This document shows, one piece after another, positions 1 through 60,020 of a stretch of DNA of 64,000 bases. Source of the stretch: Cryptosporangium minutisporangium (lineage in GTDB: Bacteria; Actinomycetota; Actinomycetes; Mycobacteriales; Cryptosporangiaceae); NCBI RefSeq assembly GCF_039536245.1, contig NZ_BAAAYN010000012.1:62001-126000 (forward strand), given 5' to 3'. The notes under the pieces were generated by a model. The model saw only the letters and a list, made by a program, of their open reading frames with translations. It was not told the origin of the DNA and made no database searches. The first letter of the stretch is position 1. Each line of letters begins with the position of its first letter. The translations under genes and the position numbers were made by a program.

Positions 1-543
1 ATCCGCCGGGCCAAGGCGCCGGAGCTCCCGGTAGTGCTGCTGGAAGACACCGCGGCGCTGCTCGGTCTGGTCTTCGCGCTGTTCGGCGTCAGCATGACGC
101 TGATCACCCACGACGGTCTCTGGGACGCGATCGGCACGCTCGCGATCGGCATCCTGCTGGTGGCGGTGGCGGTGTTCCTCGCGATCGAGACGAAGAGCCT
201 GCTGCTCGGCGAAGGGGCCAGCGCCGAGGACCTGGAGCGGATCGAGCGGGCGATCTGCGCGGAGAACAGCACGGTCCAGCGCATCATCCACATGAAGACG
301 CTGTACCTGGGACCGGACGAACTGCTGGTCGCGGCCAAGATCGCCGTCCACCACGACGAGACGGCGGGTAAGGTCGCCGAAGCGATCGACGCCGCTGAAA
401 CGCGGATCAGGGATGCGGTGCCGGTCGCCCGGGTGATCTACCTGGAGCCGGACATTTATCACGCATCGAAGGTTCGCGCCGCGCAGTCCGCGGAGAGCGC
501 GCCTGCTGGGGGAGACGCCGAGACCCGTGGAGCTACTCACTAA
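1..543 (+). CDS. Cation diffusion facilitator family transporter, C-terminal part (5' end outside window)
   Basis: The reading frame is open from base 1, so the gene starts upstream; the first possible start inside the window (GTG at 34) lies within the conserved region and is not the real start. The visible part holds the last membrane segments (LLEDTAALLGLVFALFGVSM onward) followed by a cytoplasmic domain of about 90 residues with the ferredoxin-like fold expected of CDF proteins (IHMKTLYLGPDELLVAAKI). The family exports divalent cations such as Zn, Fe or Co by proton antiport at the inner membrane. The metal cannot be predicted because the N-terminal metal-site helices are missing here. 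The stop overlaps the manA start by 17 bp, so the two are probably translated from one transcript. Confidence 0.85.
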   Translation: MRRAKAPELPVVLLEDTAALLGLVFALFGVSMTLITHDGLWDAIGTLAIGILLVAVAVFLAIETKSLLLGEGASAEDLERIERAICAENSTVQRIIHMKTLYLGPDELLVAAKIAVHHDETAGKVAEAIDAAETRIRDAVPVARVIYLEPDIYHASKVRAAQSAESAPAGGDAETRGATH

Positions 544-1720
544 CCCGATCCGCACGTACGCCTGGGGCTCCACGTCGGCGATCGCCCGCGTGCAAGGTCG
601 TCCGGTGCCCAGCCGGGAGCCGGAGGCCGAGCTCTGGATGGGGGGCCACCCGTCGGCGCCGTCCCGCCTCATCCGGGACGGTGCCGAGCACGGACTCGAC
701 GCGCTCGTCGCGGCCGACCCCGCGGGGGAACTCGGGGCATCGGTGGCGGCCGCGCACGGCGCGCGGATGCCGTTCCTGCTGAAGCTCCTGGCGGCCGAGA
801 CCCCGCTGTCGTTACAGGCCCATCCGAGCGAGGATCAGGCCAGGACCGGGTTCGCCGCAGCCGAGGCGGCCGGTCTCGCGGCCGGTGATCCGCGCCGTAG
901 CTACGTCGACCCGAACCACAAGCCGGAGCTGATCTGCGCGGTGGGGGAGTTCTCCGCGCTCTGCGGGTTCCGGTCGGTCGAACGCTCGGTCGCCGTGCTC
1001 GCGCCGGTCGTCAGCGCGGTTCCCGCGCTCAAACCGCTGCTCGACGGGCTCCGGCTGACGCCGGACGGCGGCGGACTACGGACGTTCGTGGCGGGCCTCT
1101 TCGCGCTCCCGGACGCCGACCAGGTGGCCGTCGCTTTTGCGGACGCGTGCCGCGCGGTGATCGGGGAGTCCCCGGACTACCGGCTGGCGGTGGAGTTGGC
1201 TGACCAGTTCCCCGGCGACATCGGCGTGGTGCTGGCGCTCCTGCTCAACCACCTGGTGCTCGCACCCGGAGAGGCGATGTTCCTGCCCGCCGGCGTGCTG
1301 CACGCGTACCTGCACGGCGTCGGCGTCGAGGTGATGGCGTGCTCCGACAACGTGCTGCGGGGCGGGCTGACGCCGAAGCACGTCGACGTTCCCGAGCTGC
1401 TGCGGGTCGTGCGCTTCGAGGTGATGCCGCCGGAGCCGTTCCCGGCCGTGGAGGCGGGGCCGGGCGTCCGGGTGTGGGCCCCGCCGGTGCCGGAGTTCGT
1501 GCTGACCCGGGTCGTGCTGGACGAGGCCGGAGGGCGGGCGTCGCTCGCCGGTGACGGGCCGCGGATCCTGTTCTGTCTGGAGGGCGCCGTGACGGTCGAT
1601 GACGGCACCGACCCGGCCGAGCTGCGCGGTGGCCAGGCCGGCTACGTGTCGGCCGGCCACCGCGACGTCACGCTGACCGGCACCGGCACGGTGTTCCAAG
1701 CGACTACGGGTTCCGAGTGA
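527..1720 (+). CDS. manA: Mannose-6-phosphate isomerase, class I
   Basis: 397 residues, normal for class I (cupin) phosphomannose isomerases. It interconverts fructose-6-phosphate and mannose-6-phosphate, feeding GDP-mannose for glycans and mannosylated proteins; an O-mannosyltransferase lies at 28.3 kb. Visible motifs are an N-terminal NPIRTYAWGS, the zinc-site stretch LQAHPSEDQA, DPNHKPELICAVGEF, and the second His-rich cupin stretch PAGVLHAYLHGVGVEVM. The GTG start is preceded by GGGGGA and overlaps the CDF gene. The last codons (ATTGSE-stop) are already part of the 17-bp tandem array that follows, so the array has taken over the 3' end of the gene. The extreme C-terminus is therefore not expected to be conserved in relatives. 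Confidence 0.95.
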   Translation: MELLTNPIRTYAWGSTSAIARVQGRPVPSREPEAELWMGGHPSAPSRLIRDGAEHGLDALVAADPAGELGASVAAAHGARMPFLLKLLAAETPLSLQAHPSEDQARTGFAAAEAAGLAAGDPRRSYVDPNHKPELICAVGEFSALCGFRSVERSVAVLAPVVSAVPALKPLLDGLRLTPDGGGLRTFVAGLFALPDADQVAVAFADACRAVIGESPDYRLAVELADQFPGDIGVVLALLLNHLVLAPGEAMFLPAGVLHAYLHGVGVEVMACSDNVLRGGLTPKHVDVPELLRVVRFEVMPPEPFPAVEAGPGVRVWAPPVPEFVLTRVVLDEAGGRASLAGDGPRILFCLEGAVTVDDGTDPAELRGGQAGYVSAGHRDVTLTGTGTVFQATTGSE

Positions 1721-2347
1721 CTACGGGTTCCGAGTGACTACGGGTTCCGAGTGACTACGGGTTCCGAGTGACTACGGGTTCCGAGTGACTACGGGTTCCG
1801 AGTGACTACGGGTTCCGAGTGACTACGGGTTCCGAGTGACTACGGGTTCCGAGTGACTACGGGTTCCGAGTGACTACGGGTTCCGAGTGACTACGGGTTC
1901 CGAGTGACTACGGGTTCCGAGTGACTACGGGTTCCGAGTGACTACGGGTTCCGAGTGACTACGGGTTCCGAGTGACTACGGGTTCCGAGTGACTACGGGT
2001 TCCGAGTGACTACGGGTTCCGAGTGACTACGGGTTCCGAGTGACTACGGGTTCCGAGTGACTACGGGTTCCGAGTGACTACGGGTTCCGAGTGACTACGG
2101 GTTCCGAGTGACTACGGGTTCCGAGTGACTACGGGTTCCGAGTGACTACGGGTTCCGAGTGACTACGGGTTCCGAGTGACTACGGGTTCCGAGTGACTAC
2201 GGGTTCCGAGTGACTACGGGTTCCGAGTGACTACGGGTTCCGAGTGACTACGGGTTCCGAGTGACTACGGGTTCCGAGTGACTACGGGTTCCGAGTGACT
2301 ACGGGTTCCTAGCGACTACGGGTTCCTAGCGACTACGGCGTTCCGAG
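1702..2347. repeat. 17-bp tandem array starting at the manA stop codon
   Basis: The unit GACTACGGGTTCCGAGT is repeated 35 times without a single change from 1702 to 2296. Two variant units ending in TTCCTAGC (2297-2330) and one decayed unit follow. Each unit contains TGA; since 17 is not a multiple of 3, all three forward frames are closed within 51 bp. The complementary strand has TAG in each unit and is closed the same way. Within a unit ACT-a-CGG can pair with CCG-AGT around a GTT loop, giving a row of small imperfect hairpins. The array fills the gap between manA and the convergent sigma-like gene. There are no spacers, so it is not a CRISPR array. Perfect identity suggests recent expansion or strong homogenisation. 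Confidence 0.97.
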
Positions 2348-2363
2348 CCACCCACGGCCTGAG

Positions 2364-5063
2364 TCAGGCCGGGACCACCACCACGTCCGACGGCGTCGGC
2401 GTGCGCGGAGTCGACGGGGACGCCGGGGGTTCGCTCGTCCGCGGCGGAGTCGTGGTCGGATCGTCGTCCGGCGGCGTGGTCGGCGGAGTCGTCGGCGGCG
2501 TGGTCGGGGGAGTCGTCGGCGGGGTCGTCGGCGGCTTGCTCGGGGTCTTCGTCGGGGGCTTGGTCGGGGTCGTCGGGCGGGTCCCGGGCGTCGTCCGGCT
2601 GGGCGGCGGCGTGGTCGGCGTGCCGGACGAGGGGTCGGGGATCGGGATCGGGTTCTGATTCCCGGTGTTCGTGTCGATCTGGTAGTTGTCCGGGTCGTTT
2701 CCGCCGCCGGTGTTCGTGTCCGGTGCGTGCGGCATCGGAGCCGGGCCGTCCGGGGTGCTCGCCGCGCGCGGCGACGGGCTGGCGGCCGCGAGCACGTCGG
2801 CGGGGTTGTCGGTGGCCTGGTTCTGGGCCAGCACGACCGCGCCGATCGAGAACATCATCGCGGCGACCGCAGCGGCCGCACCGGCGGCCACGCGCCTGCG
2901 GCGCAGACCGGCGGTCGGAGCGGGGAACGTCGGGGCCGAGTTGAGGTAGGCGTGGCTCGGGGGCAGCTCCTCCGGAGCGCCCCACGGCGAGCCCGAGTAG
3001 ACGTTGCCCGGCCGAGCGCCCTGGGGCGCGGGATTCGCGTCGTTGCGCACCGCCCGGGGCCGGGTGGGGGCGTCGTTCGGGACGAGGCGGTTGATCGCGG
3101 TGGGCAGCTCGGAGTGCGGCATCGTGATGCCGTCCGCGGCCGATCCGCTCGCACCGGGTCCGGAGTGCACGCCGCCGTTCATTCCTGGGCTGCCCATGCC
3201 GCCGCCGGCGCCCGGGCCGCCCGCGGCGTTCCCGCCCATCCCCGAGCCGCCGGCCGCGTTGCCACCAGCGCCGGGACCGCTTGCGGCGTTGCCACCCGCA
3301 CCTGAGCCGCCGAAGGCGTTACCACCAGCGCCGGAGCCACCGGCTGCGTTGCCGCCCATCCCGGGTGCGCCGCCCGCGGCGTTACCTCCCATGCCAGGGC
3401 CGCCCGCAGCGTTACCACCGGCGCCGGGGCCGCTCACCGCGCTACCGCCCATGCCAGGCGCGCCGCCCGCGTTTCCGCTCATGCCCGCGCCGCTGGGGGC
3501 GGCGGACAGGCCGGGACCGCTGGTCAGCGCCGCGCCGAGCCCACCGCTGCTCGCGGCGACCGCGCCACCGCCCATTCCGCTGCTGGCGGCAACCGCGCCA
3601 CCCATGCCCGCGCTGGCGGCAACCGCGCCACCCATGCCCGCGCTGGCGGCAACCGCGCCACCCATGCCCGCGCTGGCGGCAACCGCGCCACCCATGCCCG
3701 CGCTGGCGGCAACCGCGCCACCCATGCCCGCGCTGGCGGCAACCGCGCCACCCATGCCCGCGCTGGCGGCAACCGCGCCACCCATGCCCGCGCTGGCGGC
3801 AACCGCGCCACCCATGCCCGCGCTGGCGGCAACCGCGCCACCCATGCCCGCGCTGGCGGCAACCGCGCCACCCATGCCCGCGCTGGCGGCAACCGCGCCA
3901 CCCATGCCCGCGCTGGCGGCAACCGCGCCACCCATGCCCGCGCTGGCGGCAACCGCGCCACCCATGCCCGCGCTGGCGGCAACCGCGCCACCCATGCCCG
4001 CGCTGGCGGCAACCGCGCCACCCATGCCCGCGCCTCCGGCGACAGCGGCAGCTCCGCCGTTCCCGGCGGCCACTGCGCCGAAGGACGGCGCCGCGCCGGC
4101 CGCCGCACCGGCGCCGAGCGCGAACGCCCCGTGCTCCAACGGCGCGCGCAGCCCGTGCCGGTACTCCAGCGCGACCTCCACCGCCTGCTCGCGGAGGAAC
4201 GGCGGGATGCCGAAGACCGGGAGCGCCGCCCCGAGCACCTCGAGCGCGTACGAGTCCAGGCTGTCCCGGCAGGTCGGGCACGGTGCCTCGGACCGCGTCC
4301 CGTAGAGGTGCCGCTCGATCACACTGCGCATCACGCCCGGGCGTCCCTCGGCCGCACCGGCGTGCCGCACCAACCGGCGCAGGTCGGTGCAGCGCTCGCT
4401 GCCGTACCAGACCGCCACCGCCGTGGTCAGCGTCGCGCGGATCCGGTCCCGCGCCCGGGCCAGCACCGCCTGCGCGTTCCGTCCGCCGATCACGGTGACC
4501 AGGTCGCGTCCGTCCAGCCGGTCGTGCCACTCCAGCTCGAACAGCAGGCGCTCGCGGTAGGTCAGCGTCTCCATCGCGCGCCAGACCAGACGCCGCAGCT
4601 CTCCGTCGCCGCCGGCGTCCATGATCCCGACCAGCAGCTGGGTGGTGGCGTCCGGCGACCGGCGGATCCGGGTCACCCGGCTGCGACCCTCGCCGACCCG
4701 CAGGCAGCTCTCGTACGCGGCCCGGGCCATCGCCAGCCGCAGCTGCTCCGGCCTGGTCAGCCGGGCGGCGGCCACGCTGCCGATGGCCTGCCCCAGCGCG
4801 ATCGTGGCGTTCTCGCGGTCCCGCAGCGTCCGCATGAACAAACCGAACAGCCAGCGGTGGTAACGGTCGAAGAGGGCGTCCAGACCGGCCTGGGCGATCC
4901 CGTCGGCGTCAACGGAGGTGGAGTGTCGGCGGAACCCACTGGCCCAGCTCGCTCGTGTTCCGGGTACGGCATCGGCGCCGGGGTCGTCGCTCTCGCGCAG
5001 GGCGGAGAGCACCACGGCATCGTCACGTAAGCCAAACGGAAGGGCGTCGCTGTTCGTGGACAT
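2364..5063 (-). CDS. Sigma-70-like protein fused to zinc-finger, repeat region and membrane anchor
   Basis: 899 residues. Residues ~60-115 (LDALFDRYHRWLFGLFMRTL) resemble sigma region 2 and ~160-212 resemble region 4. They are followed by Cys225, His252 and CPTC at 262-265, like the zinc-finger anti-sigma motif fused to some actinobacterial ECF factors. Residues ~348-487 are 14 identical copies of GMGGAVAASA, then a looser Gly/Ala/Asn-rich stretch. One membrane helix near 721-745 (VAAGAAAAVAAMMFSIGAVV) is followed by a Pro/Thr-rich tail (TTPPTTPP repeats) that should lie outside the cell. It may be a membrane-held regulator sensing the envelope. Region 4 is poorly conserved (LTYRERLLFELEWHD), so promoter binding is uncertain. 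Start chosen at ATG 5063; the gene is divergent from MerR-sahH. Confidence 0.75.
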   Translation of the reverse strand: MSTNSDALPFGLRDDAVVLSALRESDDPGADAVPGTRASWASGFRRHSTSVDADGIAQAGLDALFDRYHRWLFGLFMRTLRDRENATIALGQAIGSVAAARLTRPEQLRLAMARAAYESCLRVGEGRSRVTRIRRSPDATTQLLVGIMDAGGDGELRRLVWRAMETLTYRERLLFELEWHDRLDGRDLVTVIGGRNAQAVLARARDRIRATLTTAVAVWYGSERCTDLRRLVRHAGAAEGRPGVMRSVIERHLYGTRSEAPCPTCRDSLDSYALEVLGAALPVFGIPPFLREQAVEVALEYRHGLRAPLEHGAFALGAGAAAGAAPSFGAVAAGNGGAAAVAGGAGMGGAVAASAGMGGAVAASAGMGGAVAASAGMGGAVAASAGMGGAVAASAGMGGAVAASAGMGGAVAASAGMGGAVAASAGMGGAVAASAGMGGAVAASAGMGGAVAASAGMGGAVAASAGMGGAVAASAGMGGAVAASAGMGGAVAASSGMGGGAVAASSGGLGAALTSGPGLSAAPSGAGMSGNAGGAPGMGGSAVSGPGAGGNAAGGPGMGGNAAGGAPGMGGNAAGGSGAGGNAFGGSGAGGNAASGPGAGGNAAGGSGMGGNAAGGPGAGGGMGSPGMNGGVHSGPGASGSAADGITMPHSELPTAINRLVPNDAPTRPRAVRNDANPAPQGARPGNVYSGSPWGAPEELPPSHAYLNSAPTFPAPTAGLRRRRVAAGAAAAVAAMMFSIGAVVLAQNQATDNPADVLAAASPSPRAASTPDGPAPMPHAPDTNTGGGNDPDNYQIDTNTGNQNPIPIPDPSSGTPTTPPPSRTTPGTRPTTPTKPPTKTPSKPPTTPPTTPPTTPPTTPPTTPPDDDPTTTPPRTSEPPASPSTPRTPTPSDVVVVPA
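3601..4020 (-). repeat. 30-bp in-frame coding repeat, 14 identical copies
   Basis: Each 30-bp unit encodes the decapeptide GMGGAVAASA; 14 copies are identical at nucleotide level between 3601 and 4020, with variant copies on either side. Identity at silent sites shows recent expansion or gene-conversion-like homogenisation. Copy number is likely to vary between strains, which would change the length of the linker between the sigma-like part and the membrane helix. A less regular Gly-rich repeat region lies at about 3180-3540. Confidence 0.97.
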
Positions 5064-57183: not shown

Positions 57184-58638
57184 TCAGGAACCGTAGAGGG
57201 TCTGACCGTCGGCCACGTCCTTGGCCAGCCGGCGGTTGAGGTGGAGCCCTTCCATCGCGAACTCGACCGCGGCGGCGGCCAGACCCGGCGACTCCGCCCC
57301 GTCGGGCACGCCGAGCCGTTCGAGGATCTGCGCCAGGCCGGGCACCGTGCCGAGCTGGTGTAGCAGGTCGGCGGCGGCGACGTTCTCGCCGGCCATCACC
57401 GTGCTGCCGCCTTCGAACTTCGTCTGCAGCCCGGAGAGGTCGACGCCGGCCAGGTACCGCCGGAACGTCCTGGCCACCGCACGACGGAGCAGATGGTCGA
57501 GGACCTCGATCTCCCGGCCGTCCTCCAGGTCGCCGGAGAGATCGGCGAACTCCACCTTGCCCCGGCTGGCCGGAACCACCGAGGGCAGGTCGCTGACCCG
57601 GGCGACCGGTGTCTCGCCGGTCCGGGCCGCCCGCCGCACCGCGGAGGCGGCGACGGTCTCCAGCGCGGCGATCGCGAACCGGGCCGAGACGCCGGACCGC
57701 TGGTCGACCTGCGGTGCCTCCCGGACCTCCCGGGTGAAGCGGGCGATGACCTCCCGCAGGTGGTCGGGCACGACCGGCTCACCCAGCGGCTCGTCCGGCC
57801 AGGTGACCAGCGCCTCCTGCTCGATCACGGCCAGTTCGCCGGTGAGGTCGAGCGGGTAGTGCGTGCGGATCTCCGCGCCGAACCTGTCCTTGAGGGGCGT
57901 GATGATGCGCCCGCGGTTCGTGTAGTCCTCGGGGTTCGCGCTGGCGACCACGAGCAGGTCGAGCGGCAGGCGCAGCGTGTAACCGCGGACCTGGACGTCC
58001 CGCTCCTCGAGCACGTTGAGCAGCGAGACCTGGATCCGCTCGGCCAGGTCGGGGAGTTCGTTCACGGCGATGATGCCGCGGTTGGTGCGGGGGACCAGTC
58101 CGTAGTGGATGGTCTCCGGGTCGCCGAGCGTTCGGCCCTGGGCGACCTTGATCGGGTCGACGTCGCCGATCAGGTCACCGACGGACGTGTCCGGGGTGGC
58201 GAGCTTCTCGCCGTAGCGGAACGAGCGGTGCAGCCACTCGACCGGTGTGGCGTCGCCGAGTTCGGCGACGAGGTTCTGCCCGTACACGCTGATCGGCGCG
58301 AACGGGTGGTCATTGAGTTCGGAGCCGGCGATCACCGGGGTCCACTCGTCGAGCAGGGAGACCAGCGACCGGATCAGCCGGGTCTTGCCCTGGCCGCGTT
58401 CGCCGAGCAGTACCAGGTCGTGGCCGGCGAGCAGAGCCCGCTCCAGCTCGGGGAGGACCGTGTCGTCGAATCCGAGGATTCCGGGGACGGAGGGTTCGCC
58501 GGCCCGCAGCCGGGCCAGCAGGTTGTGCCGGATTTCGGCTTTCACGCCGCGGTAGGGGGTCCCGGCGTCCCGCAGGGCGCCGAGAGTGGTCGGTTCGGGC
58601 CGGGCTGCCGCCTCGGCCGCCGAGGCATCACGCGTCAC
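57184..58638 (-). CDS. MoxR-type AAA+ ATPase (magnesium-chelatase-like)
   Basis: 484 residues from GTG 58638. Walker A GERGQGKTRLIRSL, Walker B region GIIAVNELPDLAERIQVSLL, sensor ASANPEDYTNRGRIITPLKD with Arg finger candidates. Typical of ChlI-like proteins that act with the VWA protein encoded next. Client unknown; in other bacteria such pairs mature metalloenzymes or act in stress response. Confidence 0.92.
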   Translation of the reverse strand: MTRDASAAEAAARPEPTTLGALRDAGTPYRGVKAEIRHNLLARLRAGEPSVPGILGFDDTVLPELERALLAGHDLVLLGERGQGKTRLIRSLVSLLDEWTPVIAGSELNDHPFAPISVYGQNLVAELGDATPVEWLHRSFRYGEKLATPDTSVGDLIGDVDPIKVAQGRTLGDPETIHYGLVPRTNRGIIAVNELPDLAERIQVSLLNVLEERDVQVRGYTLRLPLDLLVVASANPEDYTNRGRIITPLKDRFGAEIRTHYPLDLTGELAVIEQEALVTWPDEPLGEPVVPDHLREVIARFTREVREAPQVDQRSGVSARFAIAALETVAASAVRRAARTGETPVARVSDLPSVVPASRGKVEFADLSGDLEDGREIEVLDHLLRRAVARTFRRYLAGVDLSGLQTKFEGGSTVMAGENVAAADLLHQLGTVPGLAQILERLGVPDGAESPGLAAAAVEFAMEGLHLNRRLAKDVADGQTLYGS

Positions 58639-58723
58639 GGTCCGACGCTACGTCGGAATCCCGAGCCTTGCGAGGCTGTGCACCCTTTTCCGCCTTCGGC
58701 GCCTCGACCTCAGCCGACCTCAG

Positions 58724-58799
58724 CAGTCACGGGCTACGAAGAACGCAGTCACGGGCTACGAAGAACGCAGTCACGGGCTACGAAGAACGCAGTCACGGG
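58724..58799 (-). repeat. 22-bp tandem array starting at a stop codon
   Basis: On the minus strand TGACTGCGTTC followed by TTCGTAGCCCG is repeated three times plus TGACTG. The first TGA (58795-58793) is the stop codon of the MEDS-kinase gene. Like the manA array the unit starts TGACT-R-CG, is not a multiple of 3, and contains TGA and TAG. Confidence 0.95.
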
Positions 58800-59707
58800 G
58801 ACGAGATGGAACGCACCAATTGCACGGTCGCGCCGTCTCCGTCGTAGATCGTGACTCGTTGGCAGATTTGCCGGGCTAGCCACAGGCCGCGTCCCCGCTC
58901 CTGCGCAGTCCCCGGCGGGCGGTACCCGGCGACCAGCGAGTTGACGATCGGCTGGGCGCTCCAGATGTCGCAGTACAGGCAGTCGCCGTCCCGCCAGAAG
59001 CGTCCGACGCCCAGGCCGCCGCCGTGCTCGACGGCGTTGCTCGCGATCTCGTAGATCGCGATCAGGAACTCCTGCGCGTCGTCCTCGACCATCCCGGCGT
59101 CCCGCGCCCAGCCCAGCGTGGCCTGCCGGACGGTCGGGATCTCCGCCGCGTGGAACTCGATCGTCATCGCGTCGGCCGGTACGACCAGCCGTGCCGGCTG
59201 CGGACGCGCGGCCAGGAACTCCGCCGCCGGGACGTAGACCGACGAGTTCGAGACGCCCGACGTGCCCATCGTCGAGGGGTGGGTGTGGTGAGCCACCTCC
59301 AGCACTCCCGGGTCGAGAACGCTGGCGTCGTAGGCGCAGCAGAGGTCGACGGGTAGGCCGGCGAGTGCGGTGTTCAGCACCGACTCGTAGTCCTCCCACT
59401 CCGCGCCGCCGGTCCGGTCGTCCCAGCGGATCTCGGTGAGCACCCGCAGACGCTGCCCACGGCGCGCGCACCGTTCGGCCCGCCGGGCGTAGCCGCCGAT
59501 CGTCCAGGCCGGTACGCGGTGCCATTCCCGGTCGTCGACCACCTCGACGCGGGTGGCCAGGGAGCCCAGCGCCGCGGTCAGCTCGGCGGCACGCGGGCTC
59601 GCCACCACGACGGTGTCACCCGCAGCGATGCCCTGCCGGACGTACTCGGTCGCGCATCCGAGGAAATCGTCGACGGAGGAGTAGACGAGCGCGTGGTGTT
59701 CGAGCAT
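58793..59707 (-). CDS. MEDS domain plus anti-sigma-type ATPase (regulatory protein)
   Basis: 304 residues from ATG 59707; the frame is open to 59881 but no conserved residues lie there. N-terminal MEDS domain (HHALVYSSVDDFLGCATEYV; GVLEVAHHTHPSTM region) is followed by an RsbW-like HATPase domain: FLIAIYEIASNAVEHGGGLG and RGRGLWLARQICQRV. Members switch sigma factors by binding anti-anti-sigma proteins. A natural partner could be a sigma system outside the window or the sigma-like protein at 2.4 kb (speculation). Its stop codon is the first base of a tandem array. Confidence 0.88.
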   Translation of the reverse strand: MLEHHALVYSSVDDFLGCATEYVRQGIAAGDTVVVASPRAAELTAALGSLATRVEVVDDREWHRVPAWTIGGYARRAERCARRGQRLRVLTEIRWDDRTGGAEWEDYESVLNTALAGLPVDLCCAYDASVLDPGVLEVAHHTHPSTMGTSGVSNSSVYVPAAEFLAARPQPARLVVPADAMTIEFHAAEIPTVRQATLGWARDAGMVEDDAQEFLIAIYEIASNAVEHGGGLGVGRFWRDGDCLYCDIWSAQPIVNSLVAGYRPPGTAQERGRGLWLARQICQRVTIYDGDGATVQLVRSISSP

Positions 59708-60020
59708 CGGCCCCGCGCCGGGGGGCGGATCGCCATCGATCTGTGCGGCGGTCAAGGCCGACCCGAAGGAGTCAGGCGGGGAACCCGCTGAACGGCTCCC
59801 ACCGCAGAGCGCACAGTCGTCTCCTGCCCGTCGTCTCCCAGATGCACCGGCACTACCCGCATACCGGATTAGTAATCGCACCGGCGCCGGTCAGGGTAAC
59901 CACCGTTCTTCGCCCCTCGCAGCACCCCCGGCACCAGAGGTACACCAACCACCCAAGAGTGGCAGGGACCAGGCGGGTCCGGCCCGTCCTCCGGAGCGGG
60001 GTGCTGGCACGATCGTCGAT
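59708..60020. other. Intergenic region before ilvA
   Basis: Between divergent MEDS-kinase and ilvA genes. I see no leader peptide rich in branched-chain amino acids, no T-box and no clear operator. The promoters of both genes must lie here. Confidence 0.4.

Follow-up and report, generated by a model that had tools for sequence, protein, structure and literature searches.

Why does a tandem array of 22-bp units in Cryptosporangium minutisporangium lie across the stop codon of a gene? A second array, at the end of manA, crosses a stop codon within the same window (the whole stretch of 64,000 nucleotides that we analyzed), and from this pair the first-pass annotation had proposed a shared mechanism generating repeats at stop codons. 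We therefore asked how each array relates to the stop it covers, how often arrays cross stops elsewhere, and what kind of process would leave them there.

Anatomy and Surroundings of the 22-bp Array

The array occupies the short gap between two co-directional genes on the minus strand:

58793..59881, minus strand: gene for a 362-aa protein with a MEDS sensory domain and an HATPase_c_2 (anti-sigma-type ATPase) domain (ORF, Pfam)
58793..58795, minus strand: TGA stop of this gene, inside the first 22-bp unit (ORF end, congener stops)
58724..58799, minus strand: 22-bp tandem array, ~3.5 copies of the unit TGACTGCGTTCTTCGTAGCCCG (TRF; exact copies located; unique in the genome)
58705..58724, no strand assigned: 10-bp direct repeat, two copies of CGACCTCAGC, adjoining the array (TRF)
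58641..58657, no strand assigned: palindrome TCCGACGCTACGTCGGA directly ahead of the AAA gene's GTG (sequence; kept in the 3' flanks of three congeners)
57184..58638, minus strand: MoxR-like AAA ATPase gene, the next gene, co-directional (ORF; Pfam AAA_5 and Mg_chelatase)

The array annotated at 58724-58799 proved to be exact, with three full copies and a partial one. TRF called it on the window at 58723-58799 (period 22, 3.5 copies, 100% match), and the full copies of TGACTGCGTTCTTCGTAGCCCG were located on the minus strand at 58774-58795, 58752-58773 and 58730-58751. In 100 dinucleotide shuffles of the window, there was none. Beyond these three copies, no occurrence of the unit was found in the 9.23-Mb draft genome, even when up to three mismatches were allowed.

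The first TGA of the array is indeed the gene's own stop (ORF 58793-59881, minus strand), and the Pfam matches of the encoded protein were clear (MEDS, 1.7e-18; HATPase_c_2, 8.5e-10). The unit had been described as starting at this TGA; the triplet does lie in the first unit, but the repeat begins four bases (CCCG) upstream of it, so that a start at TGA merely reflects the phase chosen. The unit carries a TAG in addition to the TGA, which places stops in all three frames downstream. A terminator scan detected two weak hairpins within the array (5-pair stems, tail TTCTTCGTAG), as against 0.2 expected.

Past the array come the 10-bp direct repeat, about 50 bp of other DNA, the palindrome and the GTG of the AAA gene. 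The palindrome (window 58636-58657 region) ends two bases ahead of this GTG and contains a -10-like TAGCGT, 6 bases before the GTG, which might point to a leaderless promoter or an operator. A sigma-70 promoter scan found no promoter at the palindrome, and Rfam gave no matches at gathering score between 57000 and 60000. A protein search among named organisms returned no match, and a plasmid search returned no DNA match and only distant proteins.

Age of the 22-bp Array

Orthologues of the MEDS/HATPase gene in three congeners (67-78% identical by tblastn) end with a TGA at the matching place, and a tandem array at this gene end was absent from all three. In these genomes, a spacer of just a few tens of bases separates the stop from the palindrome and GTG. 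Because the three congeners share the gene end without the array, the latter is evidently a recent, lineage-specific duplication, and the stop of the MEDS gene, by the same comparison, evidently predates it. When the 22-bp unit was aligned with the spacer of one congener (G002), the homology was not significant, 512 of 5000 shuffles aligning equally well.

The Array at the End of manA

The second array has a different history. Its features are as follows:

527..1720, plus strand: manA-type phosphomannose isomerase gene, whose present TGA lies within the array (ORF; Pfam PMI_typeI_cat; orthologue ends)
1688..2347, plus strand: manA 3' array with a 17-bp unit (TRF, unit census)
2310-2312 and 2327-2329, plus strand: two TAG triplets, apparent relics of the ancestral manA stop (sequence, census, congener stops)

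TRF assigned this array a period of 17 and 38.7 copies, beginning within the coding sequence. A census of units read from ACTAC yielded 35 identical units and two distal units reading ACTACGGGTTCCTAGCG, with TAG; the gene-proximal units read GAG TGA, and TAG is kept solely in the distal ones. In all three congeners, manA has a similar Ala-Thr-Thr tail followed by a TAG stop. The seed of the array was likely the gene's own end, GCG ACT ACG GGT TCC TAG. The first TGA of the manA array, which had been annotated as the gene's stop, does serve as the present stop but does not appear to be ancestral: it is evidently a secondary stop derived from the altered older TAG, the direction of the change being read from the congeners, and the protein now ends one codon later. 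The two TGAs of the window are accordingly not equivalent, that of the MEDS gene being apparently ancestral and that of manA an array-made replacement. The manA case thus illustrates how an array can overwrite the stop codon of a gene and shift it by one codon.

The similarity claimed between the starts of the two units (TGACT) is weak: aligning them takes a 2-base gap plus one mismatch, and an equally high score is reached by 636 in 20000 random pairs of gene ends with TGA. Common ancestry of the units was rejected, as each is unlike all others, the manA unit comes from that gene's own last codons, and the likeness is weak. The manA array lies in a convergent gap, the 22-bp array in a co-directional one.

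The window also contains a 30-bp array of 16 copies (3544-4033) inside an ORF on the minus strand (2364-5063), a triplet-unit coding repeat in a protein without a Pfam match.

Arrays across Stop Codons in the Genome

The proposed scan of gene ends was carried out on 2,064,000 of the 9,231,419 bases (22% of the genome), a non-random sample that was chosen by contig number and includes the window. Arrays were called by TRF, and 1854 genes (~87% coding) by a codon-usage script, not a standard gene finder. For the placement null, every array was reduced to its first unit and the remainder and then assigned random positions in gaps of matching type, with a coding overlap of at most one unit. Of the 102 non-coding arrays, the 93 that sit between two called neighbor genes went into these gap-based tests (55 of 59 for non-triplet units).

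Arrays proved commoner at stops than elsewhere, as had been suspected: 19 of 55 non-triplet intergenic arrays cross a stop, versus 6.8 expected (~2.8-fold). Leaving out the two window arrays changed little (17/53 versus 6.4 expected, p 0.00005). With a whole-sample null ignoring gap type, the counts were 27/102 versus 8.8 for all arrays and 19/59 versus 5.0 for non-triplet ones, while start codons were crossed by 5/102 arrays, as compared to 10.4 expected. The excess of arrays across stops is real.

Chance origin of the stronger arrays (score ≥50) was ruled out for this genome, the one covered by the control: 65 real arrays (25 at stops) reached this score, whereas six shuffles of the 1781 regions yielded 0-4 (0-1 at stops). 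Lowering the score to 40 gave 86 real arrays (26 at stops), versus 12-21 (0-5 at stops) by chance in shuffles of these regions. Among wholly coding arrays, only 1 of 39 had a non-triplet unit (score ≥50, at least 2.4 copies, period of at least 9).

The 27 stop-crossing arrays of any unit length cover 31 gene ends. A Pfam domain was found in 27 of the 31 genes, and several domains reach within a few residues of the stop. At 28 of the 31 ends, the distance from the array's gene-side edge to the stop is no more than one unit plus 3 bp, implying that the stop is older than the duplication. For three of these genes, true orthologues (80-91% identity) were present in the sample of a congener (G003), the sole sample in which orthologues of stop-array genes other than the MEDS gene and manA were sought; their stops fall at the matching residue or within one, without an array. 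A fourth match was too distant (31% identity) to be included among the orthologues. That arrays truncate genes and so create stops was therefore rejected as a general account, the stop being normally in the first unit and the orthologue ends in agreement.

These arrays do not share an anchoring point. Within the first unit, stops are spread uniformly (KS p 0.28), the units use TGA, TAG and TAA and have no sequence in common, and most arrays comprise about two copies. The observation that unit lengths are not multiples of three is correct for the pair in the window (22 and 17), but the 19 non-triplet units among the 27 that cross a stop are just the neutral two thirds. Given the uniform stop phase, the neutral unit lengths, the use of all three stop codons, the unrelated units and the secondary nature of the manA TGA, the shared repeat-generating mechanism that had been proposed is not supported.

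Some individual arrays are worth recording. The largest stop-spanning unit in the sample, of 78 bp, is repeated 3.6 times with 100% identity and covers the TGA that ends a small FeS_assembly_P gene (L059:15994-16277, i.e., G000:C2:135994-136277). In two convergent pairs (L101:15359-15394 and L059:13992-14030), the short gap and both stops are contained in one array, meaning that a single duplication copied two stops on opposite strands.

The genome further harbors a dispersed family of intergenic arrays with a period of ~32 bp, consisting of a core GTGGTTGTCGCG, then a CTTCCGGG-like stretch and ~10 variable bases. It occurs on contigs C1, C4, C8, C11, C17, C19, C26, C27, C35, C75 and C93 (e.g., L105:1210-1797), and none was found within the 64-kb window. 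We counted 40 exact core pairs in this genome; a reversed-pattern control gave 0, as did each of the three congeners. Matches to the core GTGGTTGTCG in the 2.06-Mb sample numbered 82, of which 74 were non-coding, with 43 neighboring pairs at 32 bp. The family looks like the species-specific spread of one repeat.

Other Genomes and Gap Types

In 1.0 Mb of Nonomuraea gerenzanensis, which belongs to another family, stops are crossed by 23 of the 54 non-triplet arrays, versus 9.0 expected. In 0.8 Mb of the congener G003, there was no significant excess (3/15 versus 1.6 expected, p 0.20); with triplet arrays included, 3 of 50 cross a stop, versus 5.2 expected. Because 35 of these 50 arrays called non-coding are triplet arrays, some of them may lie in genes missed by the script. 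The statistical suspicion of stop enrichment was hence correct in two of the three samples, and a stop-codon mechanism is not needed.

The type of gap has the greatest influence. In our own sample, convergent gaps of up to 200 bp total 12.6 kb and contain 15 non-triplet arrays, co-directional ones total 46.6 kb and contain 11, and divergent ones total 23.5 kb and contain 4; per permitted placement, arrays are ~5-fold denser in convergent than in co-directional gaps. When the three samples were pooled, the profile showed a broad peak within ~30 bp of stops, declining downstream. The 5' ends of genes are array-poor, with zero arrays within 10 bp of the starts in divergent pairs (pooled over the three samples).

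Within gaps of up to 200 bp, stop-crossing arrays numbered 17 of 30 versus 9.3 expected in our own sample, and 22 of 34 versus 11.7 in Nonomuraea. Selection alone does not account for this 1.8-fold excess at stops relative to other parts of these short gaps.

Origin of the Stop-Crossing Arrays

We think it probable that duplications of the slippage type survive wherever they leave protein and promoter unharmed, most of all between convergent genes. This account builds on what was shown, namely, array anatomy, recency, stop enrichment, the hot spot in convergent gaps and the unchanged gene ends wherever orthologues were compared. The generator would be slippage or some other short-duplication process (e.g., fill-in end joining), with selection as the main filter. 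Actinomycetes possess Ku/LigD end joining, and have NucS instead of MutSL.

At the MEDS gene, a segment of ~22 bp, by chance including the stop, would have been duplicated in tandem, and one or two more duplications would have produced a young minisatellite. A duplication over a stop would be silent, as the first copy holds the frame and the stop and the remainder becomes 3' untranslated DNA. Inside a gene, a non-triplet duplication would break the gene, and over the promoter or start region it may disturb the promoter or the ribosome site; in both cases, it would be purged by selection. Surviving arrays would pile up at the 3' ends of genes, chiefly in short, promoterless convergent gaps. From silence across stops would follow not only the enrichment but also the absence of a fixed phase, the neutral unit lengths, the presence of all three stop codons and the unrelatedness of the units.

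Selection by itself, however, should make arrays as frequent at the stop as in other parts of a convergent gap, and stops are over-hit in two genomes. The residual excess could reflect selection on terminators or more frequent duplication at the ends of genes. In the latter case, a milder form of the mechanism that had been proposed, gene 3' ends would be mutational hot spots, where transcription-coupled breaks, paused polymerase or hairpins raise duplication, most of all where transcripts converge. The residual excess in short gaps of our own genome and Nonomuraea, the broad peak that fades with distance from the stop and the ~5-fold density in convergent gaps are all consistent with this, but terminators and upstream promoters constraining the rest of the gap would give the same pattern, G003 lacks a significant excess, and the hairpin scores of the units are mixed (mean z -1.5 versus mononucleotide shuffles, owing to a small number of palindromic units). 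We regard this explanation as rather unlikely. Similarly doubtful is its broader version, whereby the gene ends of high-GC actinomycetes, chiefly in tail-to-tail pairs, are true duplication hot spots at which minisatellites are born at a raised rate, beyond mere survival.

The stops in all three frames and the weak terminator-like hairpins of the 22-bp array might suggest that arrays are selected for a function, in that extra other-frame stops or repeated hairpins insulate neighboring genes. Unit lengths without triplet bias, units without common sequence, mostly about two copies per array and the lack of the 22-bp array in congeners count against such a function, and we consider it very improbable. 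Least credible of all is a mobile or site-specific element targeting stop codons, for despite the two stop-crossing arrays in 64 kb and the excess in the genome sample, the 22-bp unit has no further copy in the genome, each locus has its own unit (that of manA being made from the gene's last codons) and the position of the stop within the unit is not fixed.

The persistence of silent duplications, our preferred reading, offers a testable rule for the sites of bacterial minisatellites: across stops and between convergent genes, where duplication is silent. If the residual excess at stops had a mutational origin, gene ends would contribute measurably to the birth of repeats and to changes at the C-terminus.

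Comparison with Known Systems

Searches of open-licence literature turned up no paper that, judged by its title and the start of its abstract, describes bacterial tandem repeats as overrepresented across stop codons, and the passages of PMC9879509, PMC2734929, PMC4679880 and PMC12548453 contain no placement test at stop codons. Several known repeats nonetheless resemble the 22-bp array in part.

Passages of PMC2734929 describe a Mycobacterium tuberculosis MIRU-VNTR between rnc and fpg1 as an array specific to one lineage, the corresponding gap of other mycobacteria being much shorter. Both there and here, near-identical head-to-tail units stand in the gap beside a stop, and the gap has expanded in one lineage; the first unit of the 22-bp array, however, holds the stop, whereas the rnc-fpg1 repeats begin 40 bp past the rnc stop (PMC2734929). 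Borg repeats, according to passages of PMC9879509, have mostly non-triplet units when intergenic, and their arrays may begin inside the end of an ORF, but they are A-rich, perfect and carried by an archaeal extrachromosomal element. Some of the TAACTGA direct repeats of marine Beggiatoaceae overlap the stop of the upstream gene and provide stops in all frames; unlike the arrays studied here, which have their own unit at each locus, they consist of one unit common to many loci and are mostly oriented to the downstream start (passages of PMC4679880). The mycobacterial MIRUs are likewise short repeats sited so that genes still work, but they are dispersed related copies at start codons (passages of PMC12548453), whereas no such dispersed copies of the 22-bp unit exist in its genome at up to three mismatches.

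In the one genome of the species that was covered, the array has the head-to-tail, near-identical units of ~10-100 bp that are typical of a VNTR or minisatellite (22 bp, 3.5 copies, 100% match). We conclude that it is a young minisatellite and of a familiar type, the general pattern of placement being modestly interesting.
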